This document shows positions 1,136 through 37,067 of a stretch of DNA of 45,016 bases, one piece after another (position 1 is the first letter of the stretch; the number at the start of each line of letters is the position of its first letter). The notes under the pieces are model-generated. The model was given only the letters and a program-made list of their open reading frames with translations, made no database searches and was not told the DNA's origin. This stretch comes from an uncultured bacterium. GTDB lineage: Bacteria; Patescibacteriota; Gracilibacteria; Absconditabacterales; Absconditicoccaceae. The position numbers were made by a program, and so were the translations under genes. The stretch lies in the NCBI GenBank assembly GCA_903904875.1, contig CAIVEC010000026.1, positions 1 to 45,016 of the forward strand, read 5' to 3'.

Positions 1136-3535
1136 TTAATCGATAATATCCTGCATTTCAAAGAATTCTATGATATCTCAGATTTCTATTCTTTTTCCTG
1201 TCGTCACTTTGATCCCGCATTCATCTCATTCACCGACCTCTTTGACTTCATCCTTGTTCTTGTGAAGAGAAACTACATGACCGGTACAGAGGATATCTTC
1301 GCCTCTCATGACCGTAAATTTCGGTTTGCCATGAAGTTTTCCGAAAATGACTCTTCCTCAGATAGTCATATCCTTGTTTTTGGTAAAGAAGACTCCAAGT
1401 ACTTCAACCTTTGCAAACATTACTTCATGTTGTTCTATTTCCACCATTCCGAGAAGCAATTTATTTAAGTAATCAGTAAGTTCGTAGATGATATCAAAAT
1501 TTTTCATCTCTATCTTCATCGCATCAGCCTTCTTTTTGAGCATGGCGTTCATGGAAATGTTGAATCCCAAAAGCAATGCGCCCGATGCCTGAGCCAATGA
1601 AAGATCAGAATCAGAGAAATATCCTACATTCGCTTGGATGATTTTTATCGTCACATTTTTCGGTAACTGGATTCCGTTGACTGCTTGCTGGAGCGCTTCT
1701 AAACTACTTGAACCATCAGATTTCAAAATAAGCTTAAGTTCTGCTCCGAAAGTACCAGATTGTAATTGTGAGATGAATTGTTTAACCACTGACTCGCCAG
1801 AATTATTGCTGACTTGTTCTTGGATAAGCGATATTTTTTCTTGCGCTTCTTTTTCGTTCTTCACTACTTCAACGATACGTCCCGGTTCCGGCAAATGCGT
1901 GATACCAAGGACCTGCACAGGTTCTCATCACGTAGCGGAAGTTATGCTTTGTCATTTTCGGTTCTGCATTCTTCTGATTTTTCCTGTAGTATTGTAGGCA
2001 ACGATGATATCTCAGATTTTAAGCGTTCATGTCATGACGATGATAGTGGAAACTACTCCTTGTTTAGGATCGGTGTGTGCATCAACAACGACTCCCACGG
2101 CAGATCTCTTAGGATTATATTTCAAATCAAGCATTTCCGCTTGGAGAAGAACAGCTTCGAGAAGCTCCGGTATTCATTGTCCTGTCTTGGACGAGATACC
2201 TATCATAGGGACGTCACCTCACCGATCTTCTGGAGTGAGTCCATGTTTAGCGAGATCTTGTTTGATCTGCTCGATATTTTTTCCTGGTTTATCGATCTTG
2301 GTGATGGCGACGATAATAGGCACACCGGATTCTTTAGCATGTCAGATAGATTCTATCGTCTGTGGCATCACGCTATCGTCAGCGGCCACAACGATGATAG
2401 CTATATTCGTAAGTTTCGCTCATCTGGCTCTCAGACTGGTAAACAATTCATGTCCTGGTGTATCTATGAAACATATCTTTTTGCCATTATAGTCTACGAC
2501 AGAAGCTCAGATGGATTGAGTAATCCCTCCTGCTTCGCCTTCAGCGACAGAGGTCTTTCTGAGGTAATCAAGCAATGACGTCTTTCCATGATCCACGTGT
2601 CCCATAACGGTGACAATAGGTGACCTAGGAAGTAAGTGTTCAGCATCTTTATCCATATCAAGTATCGCTTGCAAATCTCCGCTCATGAATGTCTGAACAT
2701 CGACTTTATTATCATGTTTTTTGACGATAACACCAAATTCTGACGCAATCAATGCTGCAGTATCGAAATCCAGTGAAGCAGTGACAGAAGTCATGATCTT
2801 ATTTTGGATCAATTTTTTCATAAGTTCCGGCAATGGCACTCCCATCTTTTCAGAAAACTCCTTTACGGTAATTTTGTCATTGATATATATCTCGATTTTT
2901 TTGACTAAATTCGCTGAAGTAGTAGCTGCCTTATGTATTCTTGGTGCAACCTTAACTGGCTGTACAGCCGGTTTAGCTTGCTGGAATGGCGGTTTATTAT
3001 GCTGGAATCACGGCTTATTGAAGGGTCTATGCTGCTGATCGCCTCTTTGTGGCGGCCTCGTTGCAGGTCAGGCAGGTCTGAATGGTTTAGATCATTGATA
3101 TCCGGTCCTTGCAGGGAATTGTTTGTCACCGCGTTGAGGAGCAGCATTTCTCGGTCTGCTTGGCCTACTGACAAAAGAATCATCTCTTCTTCCGACTATA
3201 TGAGGTGCTGTACGTTCAACTTTATCAAACGAGAATGTCGCACGTCTAGGTTTTTCAAGGACAATACTTTCTTGCTGTTCTTCTTCCATACGTTTTTCTT
3301 CCTCTTTTTGCTTAGTTGCCTTATCTTCTTTTTTGAATCCCAATCATGACAAAAACCCGCCTCATCACCCTAAAAGCTCATCAGCTTTGAGTACTTTGGC
3401 GCTTGTGTCTTTTTCCTTAACTGGAGAAATCTTATCTTCTTTTATTTTGGAAGAAGTTTTAGCCTTTGGAGCTGTTTTTACGGAAGTCTTTTTAGCTGCT
3501 GGTTTCGCTGCTGACTTAACTGGTGTCTTTGGCAT
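1136..3535 (-). CDS. infB: Translation initiation factor IF-2 (code 25)
   Basis: Reverse strand with TGA=Gly gives 799 aa: [18 protein letters not shown]... N-terminal extension, then [37 protein letters not shown] (G1 motif); ends ...[12 protein letters not shown]. Confidence 0.95.
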
Positions 3536-3712: not shown

Positions 3713-3839
3713 TTTGTATTTGTAAAATTTGCTTTTTTTCACATTTCTGGATATACTTATATAAGGACTAAACGCCTAAGCGAATAAACGACAAATGATC
3801 GCTTGAGCGTTTGAGCGTTTTATCATTCATTGTTCGGAA

Positions 3840-5276
3840 ATGTTCAGAGTTCATAGAGTTTGATCTAATAGTCTATCAGTAAGGAACCTTGTTCTCTTGT
3901 TTTTTACGATAGTCCTAGGATTCGCATCAGTGATTACTTTGGCACAGATAACTATCCCTTCAGTCATAGATAACGCACAGCAAATTATAGGCAGAGTGAC
4001 TATTACCCAAGACGGAACAGAAAACACACCAACATATCGAGATTTTAATAACGATGGTAATGGAGCTACATTCATCAGCGGTTTACAGAACGCATGAACA
4101 TTTTCATGAAAGGTTCTTTGAATAGATGATAATGGATATCTCGTTTATACATACAGCAGCAACCTAGTAACTTCATGAGGCGGAGGAATGGGATGAAGTT
4201 GAGATACCTATCGGACAGGAAATGGAAGTGATATCTGGAACACTAATACAAGTAACGTCGGCATCGGAACTTCTATAATGAGCGGTAAATTACACATCAC
4301 AAGTTCAGCTCAGACAGAATTATATCTGGAAGAGACTAACGCAGGAAATGCTGCGAACATCAATCTGAAAAATACAGTGAATACATGGATGCTCGGATGA
4401 TTTTCAGACAGATTTTATATTGGTAATAATAGTTTTGCTTTTCTCAATATCATGACATGAGGTAATGTCGGTATCGGAACTACAGGTCCCAAAGCCACAT
4501 TGCAAGTCGTAGGAAATTTTATAGCAGGGGAGTATAGTAACACAATAACTGGTACTGACTCTAGTATCTGATGATGAGATAGTAATCATTTATATGGTAG
4601 TTGATCATTTATCTGATGAGGACAAACTAATTCATTACAATGAGATAATTCAGTTATTGTGTGATGAGGAATAAAAAATCAGATAATAAACGGAAATAAT
4701 TCATTTATAGGTGGTGGATGATGATGATCAGCTACAACAAATGGAAATGTCATTAATTGAGCTGATTATTCTAGCATAGTATGAGGATATTCGAACAAAA
4801 TTTACAATACTCAGTATGGATTTATTTGAGGGGGAGAATCTAATAGTATAACATGACTATCAAACGATTCAGTCATTCCAGGATGAGAGAATAATAAAAT
4901 ACAAGATGCAACCAATAGTTTTGCAGCATGAATAAAAGCAAAAATCATTGGATATACATATACTTTTGTTCGAAATTCTGATGAAAACAATGATTTTCTT
5001 GCATGAAGGAATAATAGCTTTCTTATTAGTGTACCATTTGTATGAGGAGGTCAATCACCACAAGGATGAGTCGGTATCAATACAAATAATCCACAAGCAG
5101 CATTGGATGTCAGTGGAGATATTTTGTGACAGAGTATTTTGTGACAGAGTATAAGATTAACAAAAGATAACGCATGAACTTGATGTAATGCAGGAAATTT
5201 AGGACAAATTATTTTATCAGGAACAAGTTTTTATGGTTGTGCATGAGGAAGCGGTCGAAAACAATTAGATAACTAA
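3840..5276 (+). CDS. Secreted YadA-head-like beta-roll repeat protein (code 25)
   Basis: ATG 3840, 478 codons to TAA with TGA=Gly; N-terminal signal MFRVHRVGSNSLSVRNLVLLFFTIVLGFASVITLAQ; repeats SSIGGGDSNHLYG / SFIGGGQTNSLQG / SVIVGGGIKNQIING / SFIGGGGGG / FIGGGESNSITG; later VGINTNNPQAALDVSGDI. Confidence 0.8.
5121..5150 (+). repeat. Perfect 15-bp tandem duplication inside CDS (ILGQS x2)
   Basis: attttgtgacagagt repeated twice, in frame. Confidence 0.9.
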
Positions 5277-5359: not shown

Positions 5360-5387
5360 TTGACTTTTAATAGCAAATCTATATACT
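5360..5387 (+). promoter_or_regulatory. Putative sigma-70-type promoter
   Basis: TTGACT-16 nt-TATACT; same layout as at 36074 and 40453. Confidence 0.5.
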
Positions 5388-5434
5388 ATTTTTACTAAAA
5401 AAACAAAAATATAAATCTAAAAAAAATAAAAACC

Positions 5435-6982
5435 ATGAAAACAAAAATTCTTTTCTTTTTTTTGCTGATCTTTAGCATAAGTAGCTGGATATCAATAAGT
5501 TACGCAAGTGTACAACATGTATACTTAAATAACACAGGTACTACAGAATGGCATTATTTTTGTAGTGTGGATACAGTAATTGTTCATAAACCAAGTATTG
5601 CTATGAATTCTATTTATTGGGATCCACCAATTGGTCCTAATATATCTGGACAAGATTCAGTTATTGTAACTAGTACAAATACAGGAATATGGCATTTTTA
5701 TTCGGATGAAGTGGATAAATATATATATATATTCATTATTTCATCTCCACCTGTTGAACCTGCCTGTATGGCTAACGACACCAGTTTCTGTACATCTACG
5801 TTCAACCTTCCGTTGAACGCTCAGAACAATCTGCCTGGCGGACACGCTTCTACTTACTTATGGTCAACCGGTGCAACAACACAAACGATTACCGTAACCA
5901 CACCTGGAACCTACACCGTAACCATCACCAATGCTTGTGGAGTCGGTGTCTATGACATCAACGTGACCCAAGCGAATCCTAATGCTCCTCATCTTGGAGC
6001 AGATCAGGTATTTTGCTGGGGGAGCGGTTCAGTTCTGGATCCATTAAGTACAAATGTAGCATCGTATCAGTGGTCGACAGGAGCTACAACTCCTACGATT
6101 ACCGTGGATACTACCGGTACCTATTGGGTCTATCTGGTTGATAACAACGGCTGCAGTGGCAGAGACACAGTTCAGGTGACTACATTGGTTCCTATTGATG
6201 CACCAATCTGTTATGTTGAATTCGATACGCTGACCTGGAAGAATAATATTAACTGGACCATCAACTTGCCAGGCAACGCTGACTCGGTACGGATCTACAA
6301 AGAATACGGATTGAATTTTCTGCCCATAGGGACAGTTTCAAAAACAATCAATCATTTCTTGGACATTGCTTCTACGCCACAATCGCAAAGTTACAGATAC
6401 AAAATAGCTGTAATTGATACCTGCGGTAATGAATCTGAATTGTCATCGCCTCACAAAACCATCACATTGCTGAGCGTATATGATCAACCAAGCAATATCT
6501 ACACATTCAACTGGTCTTTTTATGAAGGGCTTGTTGTATCATATTATTACCTCAATGGTATTGATATATCCAACAATGTAACACAGATTGCTCAGGTAAA
6601 TTGGAACATTGATATGTACAATTACATCAGTCCTAATCCTGCCTTTGTAAAATATTACATCGGGTTTGAAACTCCCGATTGCAATGCAAAGACCAATGTG
6701 ATAGTCAAAAGTAATTGGGTGATTAAAGATTCATTGCTTACCAGTGTTCATGAAGTGGGAATCATTCCGTTCAGTATCTTTCCCAATCCAGCCAGTGACC
6801 AAGTAACATTACAAATTGATGCTACCGACTTTCAGGTGCAATTGCTTACCACGCTCGGACAGGTAGTCTTGTCTGAATACAATGTGAAAACATTGGACGT
6901 AAGTAGTTTATCCAAAGGTCTGTATATCATCCAAGTTACCGTTGCTGGTACGGTCAGTAAACAAAAGATTATTATCAATTAA
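5435..6982 (+). CDS. Secreted protein with Ig-like/PKD-like repeats and T9SS type A C-terminal sorting domain
   Basis: 515 aa; signal peptide; repeated YLWSTGATTQTITVTTPGTYTV / YQWSTGATTPTITVDTTGTYWV; C-terminus SIFPNPASDQVTLQI...LLTTLGQVVLSEYNVKTLDVSSLSKGLYIIQVTVAGTVSKQKIIIN. No TGA codons despite 28 Gly. Confidence 0.85.
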   Translation: MKTKILFFFLLIFSISSWISISYASVQHVYLNNTGTTEWHYFCSVDTVIVHKPSIAMNSIYWDPPIGPNISGQDSVIVTSTNTGIWHFYSDEVDKYIYIFIISSPPVEPACMANDTSFCTSTFNLPLNAQNNLPGGHASTYLWSTGATTQTITVTTPGTYTVTITNACGVGVYDINVTQANPNAPHLGADQVFCWGSGSVLDPLSTNVASYQWSTGATTPTITVDTTGTYWVYLVDNNGCSGRDTVQVTTLVPIDAPICYVEFDTLTWKNNINWTINLPGNADSVRIYKEYGLNFLPIGTVSKTINHFLDIASTPQSQSYRYKIAVIDTCGNESELSSPHKTITLLSVYDQPSNIYTFNWSFYEGLVVSYYYLNGIDISNNVTQIAQVNWNIDMYNYISPNPAFVKYYIGFETPDCNAKTNVIVKSNWVIKDSLLTSVHEVGIIPFSIFPNPASDQVTLQIDATDFQVQLLTTLGQVVLSEYNVKTLDVSSLSKGLYIIQVTVAGTVSKQKIIIN

Positions 6983-6986
6983 TATG

Positions 6987-7016
6987 AATCCGGGAGTTTT
7001 TCTTCCGGATTTTTTT
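6987..7016 (+). terminator. Intrinsic terminator
   Basis: AATCCGG...CCGGATT followed by TTTTTT. Confidence 0.8.
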
Positions 7017-7119: not shown

Positions 7120-8454
7120 ATGCTTAAATCTTCGAACAAAGTGAAGAAGTTTAAGATTTCTAAAGCAGTTCGGTGCACCTATACATCCAAGTTTTTTATA
7201 CTTTCACATTACAATGGAAAAAAAGTAAAAAAATGAGCGCATGCGAACTATGACATCCAGCTCACAATAACGCCTAAAGAATATGAAGACACCAAGCTTA
7301 TCATGCTTCAGGAGTTCCAGAAAGATTATGAAGCGCCAGGATTCAGGAAATGATCTGCACCGCTTGATATGGTTGAAAAGAACGTCAAACCGGAATATAT
7401 ATCTATCGGAGCATACGAAAAGTTGATTAATATCTGATTGCAGGAAATTTTGAAAGAGCAGCCGGATCTCAAATTGATAGGGGAGCCGTACGATCTCAAA
7501 CAGGAAAAGAAATGAGAAAATACCATCATCGATTTTAAATTGGATATCTTTCCGGAAGTGGAAGTGGTGAACAACGACCGAGAGAAACAGTCGGTGACTC
7601 CTATCGACAATACGGCTACCAAAGAAGAGATCGAAGGGACATTGATGAACATCAAAAAACAATATGCTGATTATCAAGACGCGGATAGCATCCAACTCGA
7701 TACCATTTCCAAGATCGCCCTCGAATATCTCGATAAGGAAGGGAAGGTGATCCATACAGGCCATACCTATATAGGCGAACAGGAATTCGCGGAGGATCCA
7801 TTTTTCCCTGCAACATTCATCAACAAGAAAAAAGACGAAGTGATAGAGCTTGCTCATGATGAAAAGAAACTTCCTGCAATCCTTCACAACAAAAAAAGCG
7901 ATGCTCAAGCAGAGAAGATCAAGCTCACTATCAAAGACATCAAAAAGATAGTGTTACCGGAGATGACGCCTGAGATGCTCAAAAAACTCTTCTGAGACGA
8001 TACGAAATTACAGAACCAAGAAGATCTAGTCGCCTATATCAAGGATTCTATCGAACATCAGAAATACGATCAGGAACTTATCAAAAAGATAGAAGGCGTA
8101 TTGCAGAATCTAAGAAACAAAGCTATGAAAGTAATAATCCCGCAGACATTGATCAACGAAGAACTCAAGTCAAGAATTCAGAATCTCGAACAAAGATTGG
8201 GCTGAAAAGAAAAGATGGATGCATATTTCAAGAACATGGGAGACGAGAAAGCGAAAGCGTTCTTTGAAGATATCACCAAAGCGGCTGAAGAAAGCTTGGA
8301 AAAATTCTTCATCCTGCAGAAATTCACGCAATTGCTCAATCTGGAAGTCGATCGGAACCAATCAGCGCACATGGCCGTAGAACAGAAACTCTACGATAAG
8401 CTGCTCAAAAGCGACGGTACGGAAAAGAAAACAAAGAAACCGCATGATCACTAA
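7120..8454 (+). CDS. tig: Trigger factor (code 25); start codon uncertain
   Basis: With TGA=Gly: ...NYDIQLTITPKEYEDTKLIMLQEFQKDYEAPGFRKGSAPLDMVEKNV...KKPHDH-TAA. ATG 7120 is the only upstream in-frame ATG I found; a more natural start at 7214 is out of frame by one A. Confidence 0.8.
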
Positions 8455-36073: not shown

Positions 36074-36101
36074 TTGACTTTTTATAGAAAATATCTATAA
36101 A
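36074..36101 (+). promoter_or_regulatory. Putative sigma-70-type promoter
   Basis: TTGACT-16 nt-TATAAA about 33 nt upstream of ATG 36135. Confidence 0.55.
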
Positions 36102-36134: not shown

Positions 36135-37067
36135 ATGGCTATAGAACTTCTGGAAATCAAAGGATGAGCGAAATTACTAAAAGGGAAAACGACACCTAAA
36201 GTGAGCGAAGAACTTTTGCAATCCTTATGAATCAGTCATAATTTTACCTGATTACCATTGGATTACTATAGTTCAGATAACTCATCAGTTGTTGTCTGTC
36301 CCCAAAGGTGAGCTACTATACCATCACTTATTTTAGACGGTGTAGAAATATTTTATAATGATCCAAAAAGAAGAAACGATAGTAGTAAAAAGATAAGAGA
36401 ATGATTCCGAATGTGACCACAATCGTGAAACTTTAGTGCAGCACAGATGAAAGAATATTGATACAACCTGGATCAACACTGATTTCTGAGAGATGCAACA
36501 CGGGAGAGATGGGAACGATTACTCGAGCGATGACTCAAAACAGTCAGAGATGAAATAGTATATCTATTTGTAAGTAATCAAGATACGTTTACAAAGTTTC
36601 CACATGTATTTACTGCCTCTGAAAAAATAAAACTAGGAACTAACAGTGCGAATATATCGCTGCATATAAGAAATAATGGGAATGATTCGATGCGTTTTTC
36701 TCCAGGACATCATACATATTATAAAGTCGCTCCAGATCAAAAAAAGAATATAGAGTTAGACAAAAACATTTGAGTAAATGACAAAATGAAATCCAAATGG
36801 ATATCAGGAGAGGAGACCATTATCGTACCTAATCCATGATCCTGTAAAATAGTTATCCCAGGAACTGGTGAACTCCAAACGGATTTTGATCCTCAATTCT
36901 GACTTTTACAACTGCGAAGTGAAAAAGACCAATGATTTGTATGTATTGAACCAGTAATCAATAGAGCAGAAAAATGGCTCCAATCAGCCATTATTACTAA
37001 ACCTGCAGAGATTATGAAAGTATGATTTTCTGTTACTCTGTTATCCAAAGATAATTATATGAAATAG
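36135..37067 (+). CDS. Aldose 1-epimerase-like (galactose mutarotase-like) protein (code 25)
   Basis: 310 aa with very dense TGA: MAIELLEIKGGAKLLKG...VVVCPQRGATIPSLILDGVEIFYNDP...SLHIRNNGNDSMRFSPGHHTYYKV...QLRSEKDQGFVCIEPVINRAEKWLQ. Confidence 0.8.

Follow-up and report, generated by a model that had tools for sequence, protein, structure and literature searches.

The 45,016-nucleotide stretch of DNA analyzed here (“the window”) is contig C26 of G000, a genome of 965,715 bases in 49 contigs. Its positions 5435-6982 on the forward strand carry an open reading frame that begins with ATG, ends with TAA and encodes 515 amino acids without an in-frame TGA; a count over the frame confirms the statement of a first-pass annotation that its glycines are written GGN in 28 cases out of 28. 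Going by its sequence, the gene is best described as encoding a T9SS-type surface protein, resembling “type A” cargo of the type IX secretion system, and as belonging to a UGA-free cohort which is characterized below. The last 68 residues (448-515, positions 6776-6979) match the T9SS C-terminal sorting domain in profile searches (PF18962 at 3.8e-12 and 46.8 bits, against a cut-off of 27; TIGR04183 at 1e-10), in agreement with the type A tail that had been reported, and the WSTGATT..TITV repeats that had also been reported are visible in the translation. The hydrophobic N-terminus (5435-5509) is probably a Sec signal peptide, with no glutamine (Q) seen at position +1. The repeat region at residues 100-254 (5732-6196) is, apart from a few weak matches to the tail, the main part of the protein that has relatives in Bacteroidota, mostly at 30-50% identity.

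The gene is framed by recognizable signals on the same strand. A sigma70-like promoter, TTGACT-N16-TATACT, lies at 5360-5387 and is conserved before the same gene in the genomes G005 and G002, as well as before a paralogue on contig C1 of G000. It is followed by an A-rich leader (5405-5434, 73% A) with no Shine-Dalgarno motif, and the stop codon is followed at 6987-7016 by a terminator-like hairpin, AATCCGG/CCGGATT, and a run of T. The GC content of the gene is slightly higher than that of its neighbours.

Those neighbours use TGA as a sense codon on both sides, as the earlier reading had it. A YadA-like gene (3795-5276, forward strand) has TGA in 36 of its 87 glycine codons, the other 51 being GGN; this copy has no Pfam match, and its relatives beside the sites designated C and D match YadA_head. 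The downstream flank, tig (trigger factor; 7120-8454, forward strand), has TGA in 6 of 18 and GGN in 12. On the reverse strand, the upstream flank of the conserved site, infB (1136-3535), has 19 TGA and 47 GGN, and the TGA-using pth (584-1117) lies within the same conserved neighbourhood. The reading of UGA as glycine is directly visible in this lineage, since in infB, tig, pth and other genes a conserved glycine column can have TGA in one congener and GGN in another; the related genome G004 has one tRNA with a UCA anticodon, labelled SeC by the program. TGA accounts for about 0.28 of glycine codons genome-wide in G000 and 0.32 in G004, and at the former share the chance of finding none among the 28 glycines of the window gene alone is about 1e-4.

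The gene does not stand alone. The order pth-infB-YadA-[gene]-tig is identical in G005, G001 and G002, so that the YadA-like gene adjoins the window gene or its orthologue in all four species; the orthologues are 54-66% identical over their full length, or about 35% in G001. At a second conserved site, beside rpsL-rpsG, one to three such genes are found in seven genomes. A third site is flanked by YadA-like genes on one side and by a gene for polyprenyl synthase on the other in G000 and G005; in G002 it adjoins the latter gene. Within G000 there are 4 matches to PF18962; C1:53245 is a paralogue of the window gene (68% identical), C1:32539 is a relative at 37%, and contig C11 has three UGA-free genes in tandem. 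PF18962 genes are present in 8 of the 9 genomes of the genus and in about half of the family's sampled genomes, and further families of the class have them too (f7, f10, f12 and f15, for example in G014, G077, G084 and G122). PF18962-like tails in UGA-rich genes are exceptions (L154 in G154:C2, with 22 TGA and 44 GGN; L155 in G202:C3, with 10 TGA and 7 GGN).

This recurrence bears on whether Bacteroidota DNA has simply been joined to the wrong contigs during assembly or binning. The genomes are metagenome bins, and two of the three PF18962 matches in G008 lie on contigs, C55 (L053) and C44 (L055), which are nearly free of in-frame TGA throughout, carry standard-code-looking genes and are probably contaminants. 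The same junctions nevertheless recur in independent genomes, and G040, a single-contig genome, has cohort genes at a site that it shares with G206, so an artefact is the least probable of the explanations considered; contamination and chimerism are rejected for the sites named here. The window gene is not located at a contig end, and the earlier view of it as internal and not a contig-end chimera holds.

The syntenic families are also old. Their protein identity between species is about 0.25-0.72, four-fold codons agree in only about 0.2-0.5 of conserved residues (the neighbouring genes being similar) and synonymous sites are near saturation. Over this divergence the pooled syntenic relatives have TGA in 0 of 1159 glycine codons. 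The conserved glycine columns of the cohort families vary in codon in 177 of 195 cases and show TGA in none, against TGA in 157 of the 260 columns of neighbouring genes. Some cohort members have kept their place across related species while their synonymous sites changed almost to saturation, and not one sense UGA has arisen in them. Vertically related orthologues with TGA codons had been named as what would refute the earlier reading; the outcome is one that it did not foresee, in that vertical orthologues exist and none has TGA.

The proposal of a recent horizontal acquisition does not survive these observations. The lack of UGA, the T9SS tail and the slightly elevated GC could be explained by the recent transfer of just one standard-code gene, but this is very improbable given the same-locus orthologues in three congeners with nearly saturated synonymous sites, the paralogue, the relatives at other sites and the presence of such genes across the genus. 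Nor has a donor been found: the 395 Bacteroidota genomes compared contain no full-length relative of the window protein, only matches to the repeat region or the tail, and a scan of 84,980 species returned no full-length donor and one partial match at 28%. A phage origin was rejected, the window protein having no match in annotated phages or viral contigs. The GC3 of the T9SS genes tracks that of the resident genome (rho 0.60 per gene, r 0.70 per genome, with related genomes as non-independent points). Trees of the site B genes and of ribosomal markers are weakly resolved, with G003 on the longest branch in both.

The existence of a standing cohort of UGA-free genes with a signature of their own, to which the window gene belongs, is very well supported. 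The cohort comprises about 4-5% of genes, scattered over the genome, and its signature is clearest in G004, which is 99% complete in 8 contigs and was read nearly in full. When the genes of G004 are sorted by the fraction of A in the 30 bases before the ATG, 37 have a fraction of at least 0.6 and no TGA, 15 have such a leader together with TGA, 26 are other UGA-free genes and 843 make up the rest; the association between an A-rich leader and the absence of UGA has an odds ratio of 80 (p 6e-37) in G004 and 36 (p 2e-17) in G000, for leader thresholds set after the data had been seen and with the start taken as the first ATG. Selection by promoter and leader, made blind to TGA, gives a consistent result: the 33 genes of G004 with TTGAC and an A-rich leader have 3 TGA in 345 glycine codons, a share of 0.009 compared to 0.323 elsewhere, and the corresponding shares in G000 are 0.045 and 0.287. 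Off-frame TGA is normal (0.0273 vs 0.0286), which rules out a general avoidance of the trinucleotide and implies that the ban falls on codons and not on letters.

The leaders of the cohort are Bacteroidota-like, and its promoter is the lineage's own. The leaders of UGA-free genes lack a Shine-Dalgarno motif and have peaks of A at -3, -5/-6 and -11 to -13, while those of UGA-using genes are T-rich; this profile matches the positions in Flavobacterium johnsoniae (-3, -6, -12 and -13) at which an A is associated with stronger initiation (PMC6847099). The promoter is TTGAC[AT]T-N8-AAATA-N2-TATAA or a close variant, often 20-35 bases before the ATG. The exact pattern is found in 34 of the family's 49 genomes (25 copies in G000 and 19 in G004, with 0 for the reversed control), compared to 2 of 395 Bacteroidota genomes, in which the reversed control gave 5 matches. 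The RNA polymerase of Bacteroidota uses TTTG/TANNTTTG, and its promoters are not exchangeable with those of the E. coli sigma70 type (PMC6847099). This -33/-7 promoter, TTTG/TANNTTTG, is not enriched in the cohort, where TANNTTTG occurs at 0.11 compared to 0.12 elsewhere and a sigma70-type element is found instead. The idea that the promoter was imported along with the genes is rejected, because the pattern is the lineage's own and is essentially missing from the 395 Bacteroidota genomes.

The signature is not equally sharp everywhere. In other genera the leaders are less A-rich and the promoter is less regular, and some UGA-using genes bear the cohort promoter too. The window itself has an exact copy, TTGACTTTTTATAGAAAATATCTATAA, at 36074-36100 on the forward strand, which precedes a UGA-rich gene at 36135-37067 (15 TGA, 9 GGN) and shows that the cohort promoter also serves ordinary genes. 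A crude count of terminators did not separate the gene classes. TGA is rare as a stop codon (5 of 71 genes with TTGAC and an A-rich leader), so the cohort genes are nearly clean under code 25 as well, which is compatible with their translation in the organism that carries them. The few TGAs in otherwise UGA-free genes with A-rich leaders lie mostly at 0.90-0.97 of the frame, where they would act as stops under the standard code, and a TGA near the 3' end is likewise found in the T9SS gene on contig C8 of G004, the SprF gene on contig C22 of G000 and that of G206. A Bacteroidota-like exported protein (..QSNAQ) encoded on contig C1 of G000 (L007:458-1246, reverse strand) has the exact cohort promoter, 2 TGA and a less A-rich leader, and its gene may be a member of the cohort on its way to code 25.

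The products of the cohort include T9SS cargo, lipoprotein-like and small exported or membrane proteins, a response-regulator-like protein, PhoH, an Acyltransf_2 protein (1e-64), GNAT acyltransferases, the product of a UGA-free KASIII-like gene, IMPDH and PurA. The last two types are seen side by side on contig C18 of G000 (L185:7688-10557), where adjacent, UGA-free genes for IMP dehydrogenase and adenylosuccinate synthetase (TGA in 0/47 and 0/44) have A-rich leaders and UGA-using flanks. At C2:95619-103480 and C8:61194-62922 of G004, small UGA-free genes preceded by the cohort promoter are clustered; they are candidate small effectors. By a simple motif rule, Q follows the signal-peptide cleavage site in 30 of 48 cohort proteins, compared to 35 of 216 elsewhere (p 4e-10), and the Q-rule is specific to Bacteroidota (PMC5837995). 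G004 and G000 have seven cohort genes in common, located at corresponding positions and free of TGA once the correct start is taken. Many others are species-specific, the slot in a congener being empty or filled by other cohort genes; in one such slot, two species have cohort genes that differ and appear unrelated to each other (C3:142046-143164 of G004 and L170:7188-7934).

Turnover of this kind would be expected if Bacteroidota genes were repeatedly acquired, expressed by the recipient from its own promoters, and replaced or lost before UGA could accumulate. Continuous import of this sort would also explain the Bacteroidota-like export signals and protein types, and the TGA stop codons of some cohort genes, which donor genes would have too. 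It does account for the members confined to one species, but the syntenic families and the lineage promoter are beyond it: several species have the same genes at unchanged loci although synonymous sites are almost saturated, neither the 395 Bacteroidota genomes nor the wider species scan supplies a full-length donor, the GC3 of the T9SS genes follows the resident genome, and the promoter is that of this lineage and not of the donor phylum, even though the leader has remained Bacteroidota-like. As an account of the whole cohort continuous import is unlikely, though it is the strongest of the alternatives, and the many lineage-specific members indicate that import is also going on.

The presence of T9SS cargo raises the question of the machinery that would handle it, for which T9SS genes had been suggested as a check; the T9SS translocon that would serve it is missing. 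A search for SprA (SprA_N, PF14349) gave no match in the 9 genomes of the genus, with a positive control in Spirosoma at 3e-148, and Peptidase_C25 had no match in 6 genomes, its positive control also giving none. Contig C22 of G000, by contrast, has a group of three genes with no sense UGA. One product has SprB repeats (2.5e-94) and ends in a CHU_C type B tail, another belongs to PorP/SprF (TIGR03519, 4e-28), and the third is PorE-like. In another genus, G040 and G206 have an SprB-SprF-PorE-like operon between the same flanks, a tilS-like side and dnaJ (PorP/SprF being a family match there, and the names of tilS, dnaJ, SprB and PorE being read from sequence). The glycines of the two operons are written GGN in 126 and 123 cases with no sense TGA, next to a dnaJ which in G206 has 31 TGA and 26 GGN. 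The SprF proteins of G040 and G206 are 78% identical and their genes share 16 of 42 four-fold codons. It is not evident what use a cell of this lineage, which is expected to be monoderm, would have for an outer-membrane SprF that purifying selection maintains.

The absence of UGA could in principle be a consequence of expression within the cell that carries the genes. High expression is rejected as the reason in the T9SS genes, since their codon usage (GGC 13-21%, GC3 0.30-0.36) differs from that of highly expressed resident genes (GC3 0.18-0.23), GGC being near 0, AGA dominant and GC3 low in the EF-Tu, EF-G, ribosomal and S-layer-like genes, and since EF-Tu, EF-G and the S-layer-like gene have no A-rich leader. 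Avoidance of UGA does extend to the S-layer-like gene (0/90) and EF-Tu (2/35). The former (L081:12506-15931, reverse strand, on contig C5 of G004) encodes an SLH-domain protein with 0 TGA in 90 glycine codons, a normal leader and strongly biased codons, and is probably a separate, expression-driven case.

A subtler form of the same idea is that the cohort is a regulon which the cell translates itself when its UCA-anticodon tRNA decodes poorly or when release factor 2 from a partner could enter, so that selection would remove UGA and favour a strong A-rich leader. The shared promoter and leader fit such a regulon, as do the rarity of TGA as a stop codon, which lets the genes read well under code 25, and the avoidance of UGA by the S-layer-like and EF-Tu genes. 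It is nonetheless doubtful, and more so than continuous import, because the T9SS genes have codon usage opposite to that of the highly expressed resident genes, because EF-Tu, EF-G and the S-layer-like gene do without the A-rich leader, and because it would leave unexplained why a genome that lacks SprA has SprF, T9SS tails and export signals of the Bacteroidota type.

The leader, the codon ban and the export signals together point to translation in a Bacteroidota cell, and transcription most likely takes place in the symbiont, as the carrier of these genes may be called, because the promoter is the lineage's own and is nearly absent from Bacteroidota. Among the explanations considered, translation in a host is the best, although it is unproven. 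The reading preferred here, to which a probability of roughly 50% is assigned from sequence evidence, is that the cohort is transcribed in the symbiont and translated and exported in a standard-code Bacteroidota partner. The symbiont would make the transcripts from its own TTGACWT..TATAA promoter, and these would reach the cytoplasm of the partner by RNA transfer or through a shared cytoplasm. There the partner's ribosomes would translate them, the A-rich leader without a Shine-Dalgarno motif and the lack of in-frame UGA suiting them to this. The export signals, which comprise Q after the signal peptide, a lipobox, the T9SS tail and even an outer-membrane SprF, would be addressed to the partner, whose Sec and T9SS machinery would secrete the window protein or display it on the partner's surface, where it may act as a binding site that pairs with the YadA-like adhesin encoded alongside. 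Slightly less probable is the broader reading in which the cohort is a regulon transcribed by the symbiont but written for the ribosomes of a Bacteroidota host, delivered as nucleic acid and adding proteins to the host's envelope and metabolism.

If host translation is correct, then the cohort represents gene expression across cells between bacteria, exposed by chance through the differing genetic codes of the partners. It would also name Bacteroidota as the partner phylum of code-25 candidate-phyla bacteria, and it would supply dozens of candidate effector genes per genome together with a testable mechanism for the action of small cells on their hosts. Should translation take place in the symbiont after all, one would still have to explain a class of scattered genes which has its own leader and in which in-frame UGA stays banned through near-saturating divergence. 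No description of such a cohort was found in the literature searched.

Several known systems share features with the cohort. The window protein resembles the T9SS type A cargo of Bacteroidota (PF18962/TIGR04183) in having a sorting domain above the curated cut-offs, a putative N-terminal export signal and beta repeats, but its gene lies in a genome that reads UGA as glycine and lacks SprA, and it is most likely transcribed from a promoter of the lineage's own type. The group on C22, like the SprB-SprF gliding adhesin pair of Flavobacterium and Cytophaga, combines SprB repeats, a CHU_C type B tail, PorP/SprF and a PorE-like protein in one operon (SprF and its partners being found also in G040 and G206); unlike that pair, it belongs to a candidate-phyla genome without SprA whose cell is expected to be monoderm. 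Phages of Gracilibacteria and Absconditabacteria avoid TGA so that both codes can read them (PMC10746230). The cohort genes are similarly TGA-free and give the same product under two codes, but they are not phage genes: they are dispersed over the cell's own chromosome and have a promoter in common, as well as host-type leaders and export signals. The T-DNA of Agrobacterium consists of genes which are borne by a bacterium and written in the expression language of its host, with host-type promoters, and which are delivered as DNA. The cohort may be analogous to T-DNA in that it too would be written in the expression language of a host, differing in that its promoter is of the symbiont's type where that of T-DNA is of the host's.
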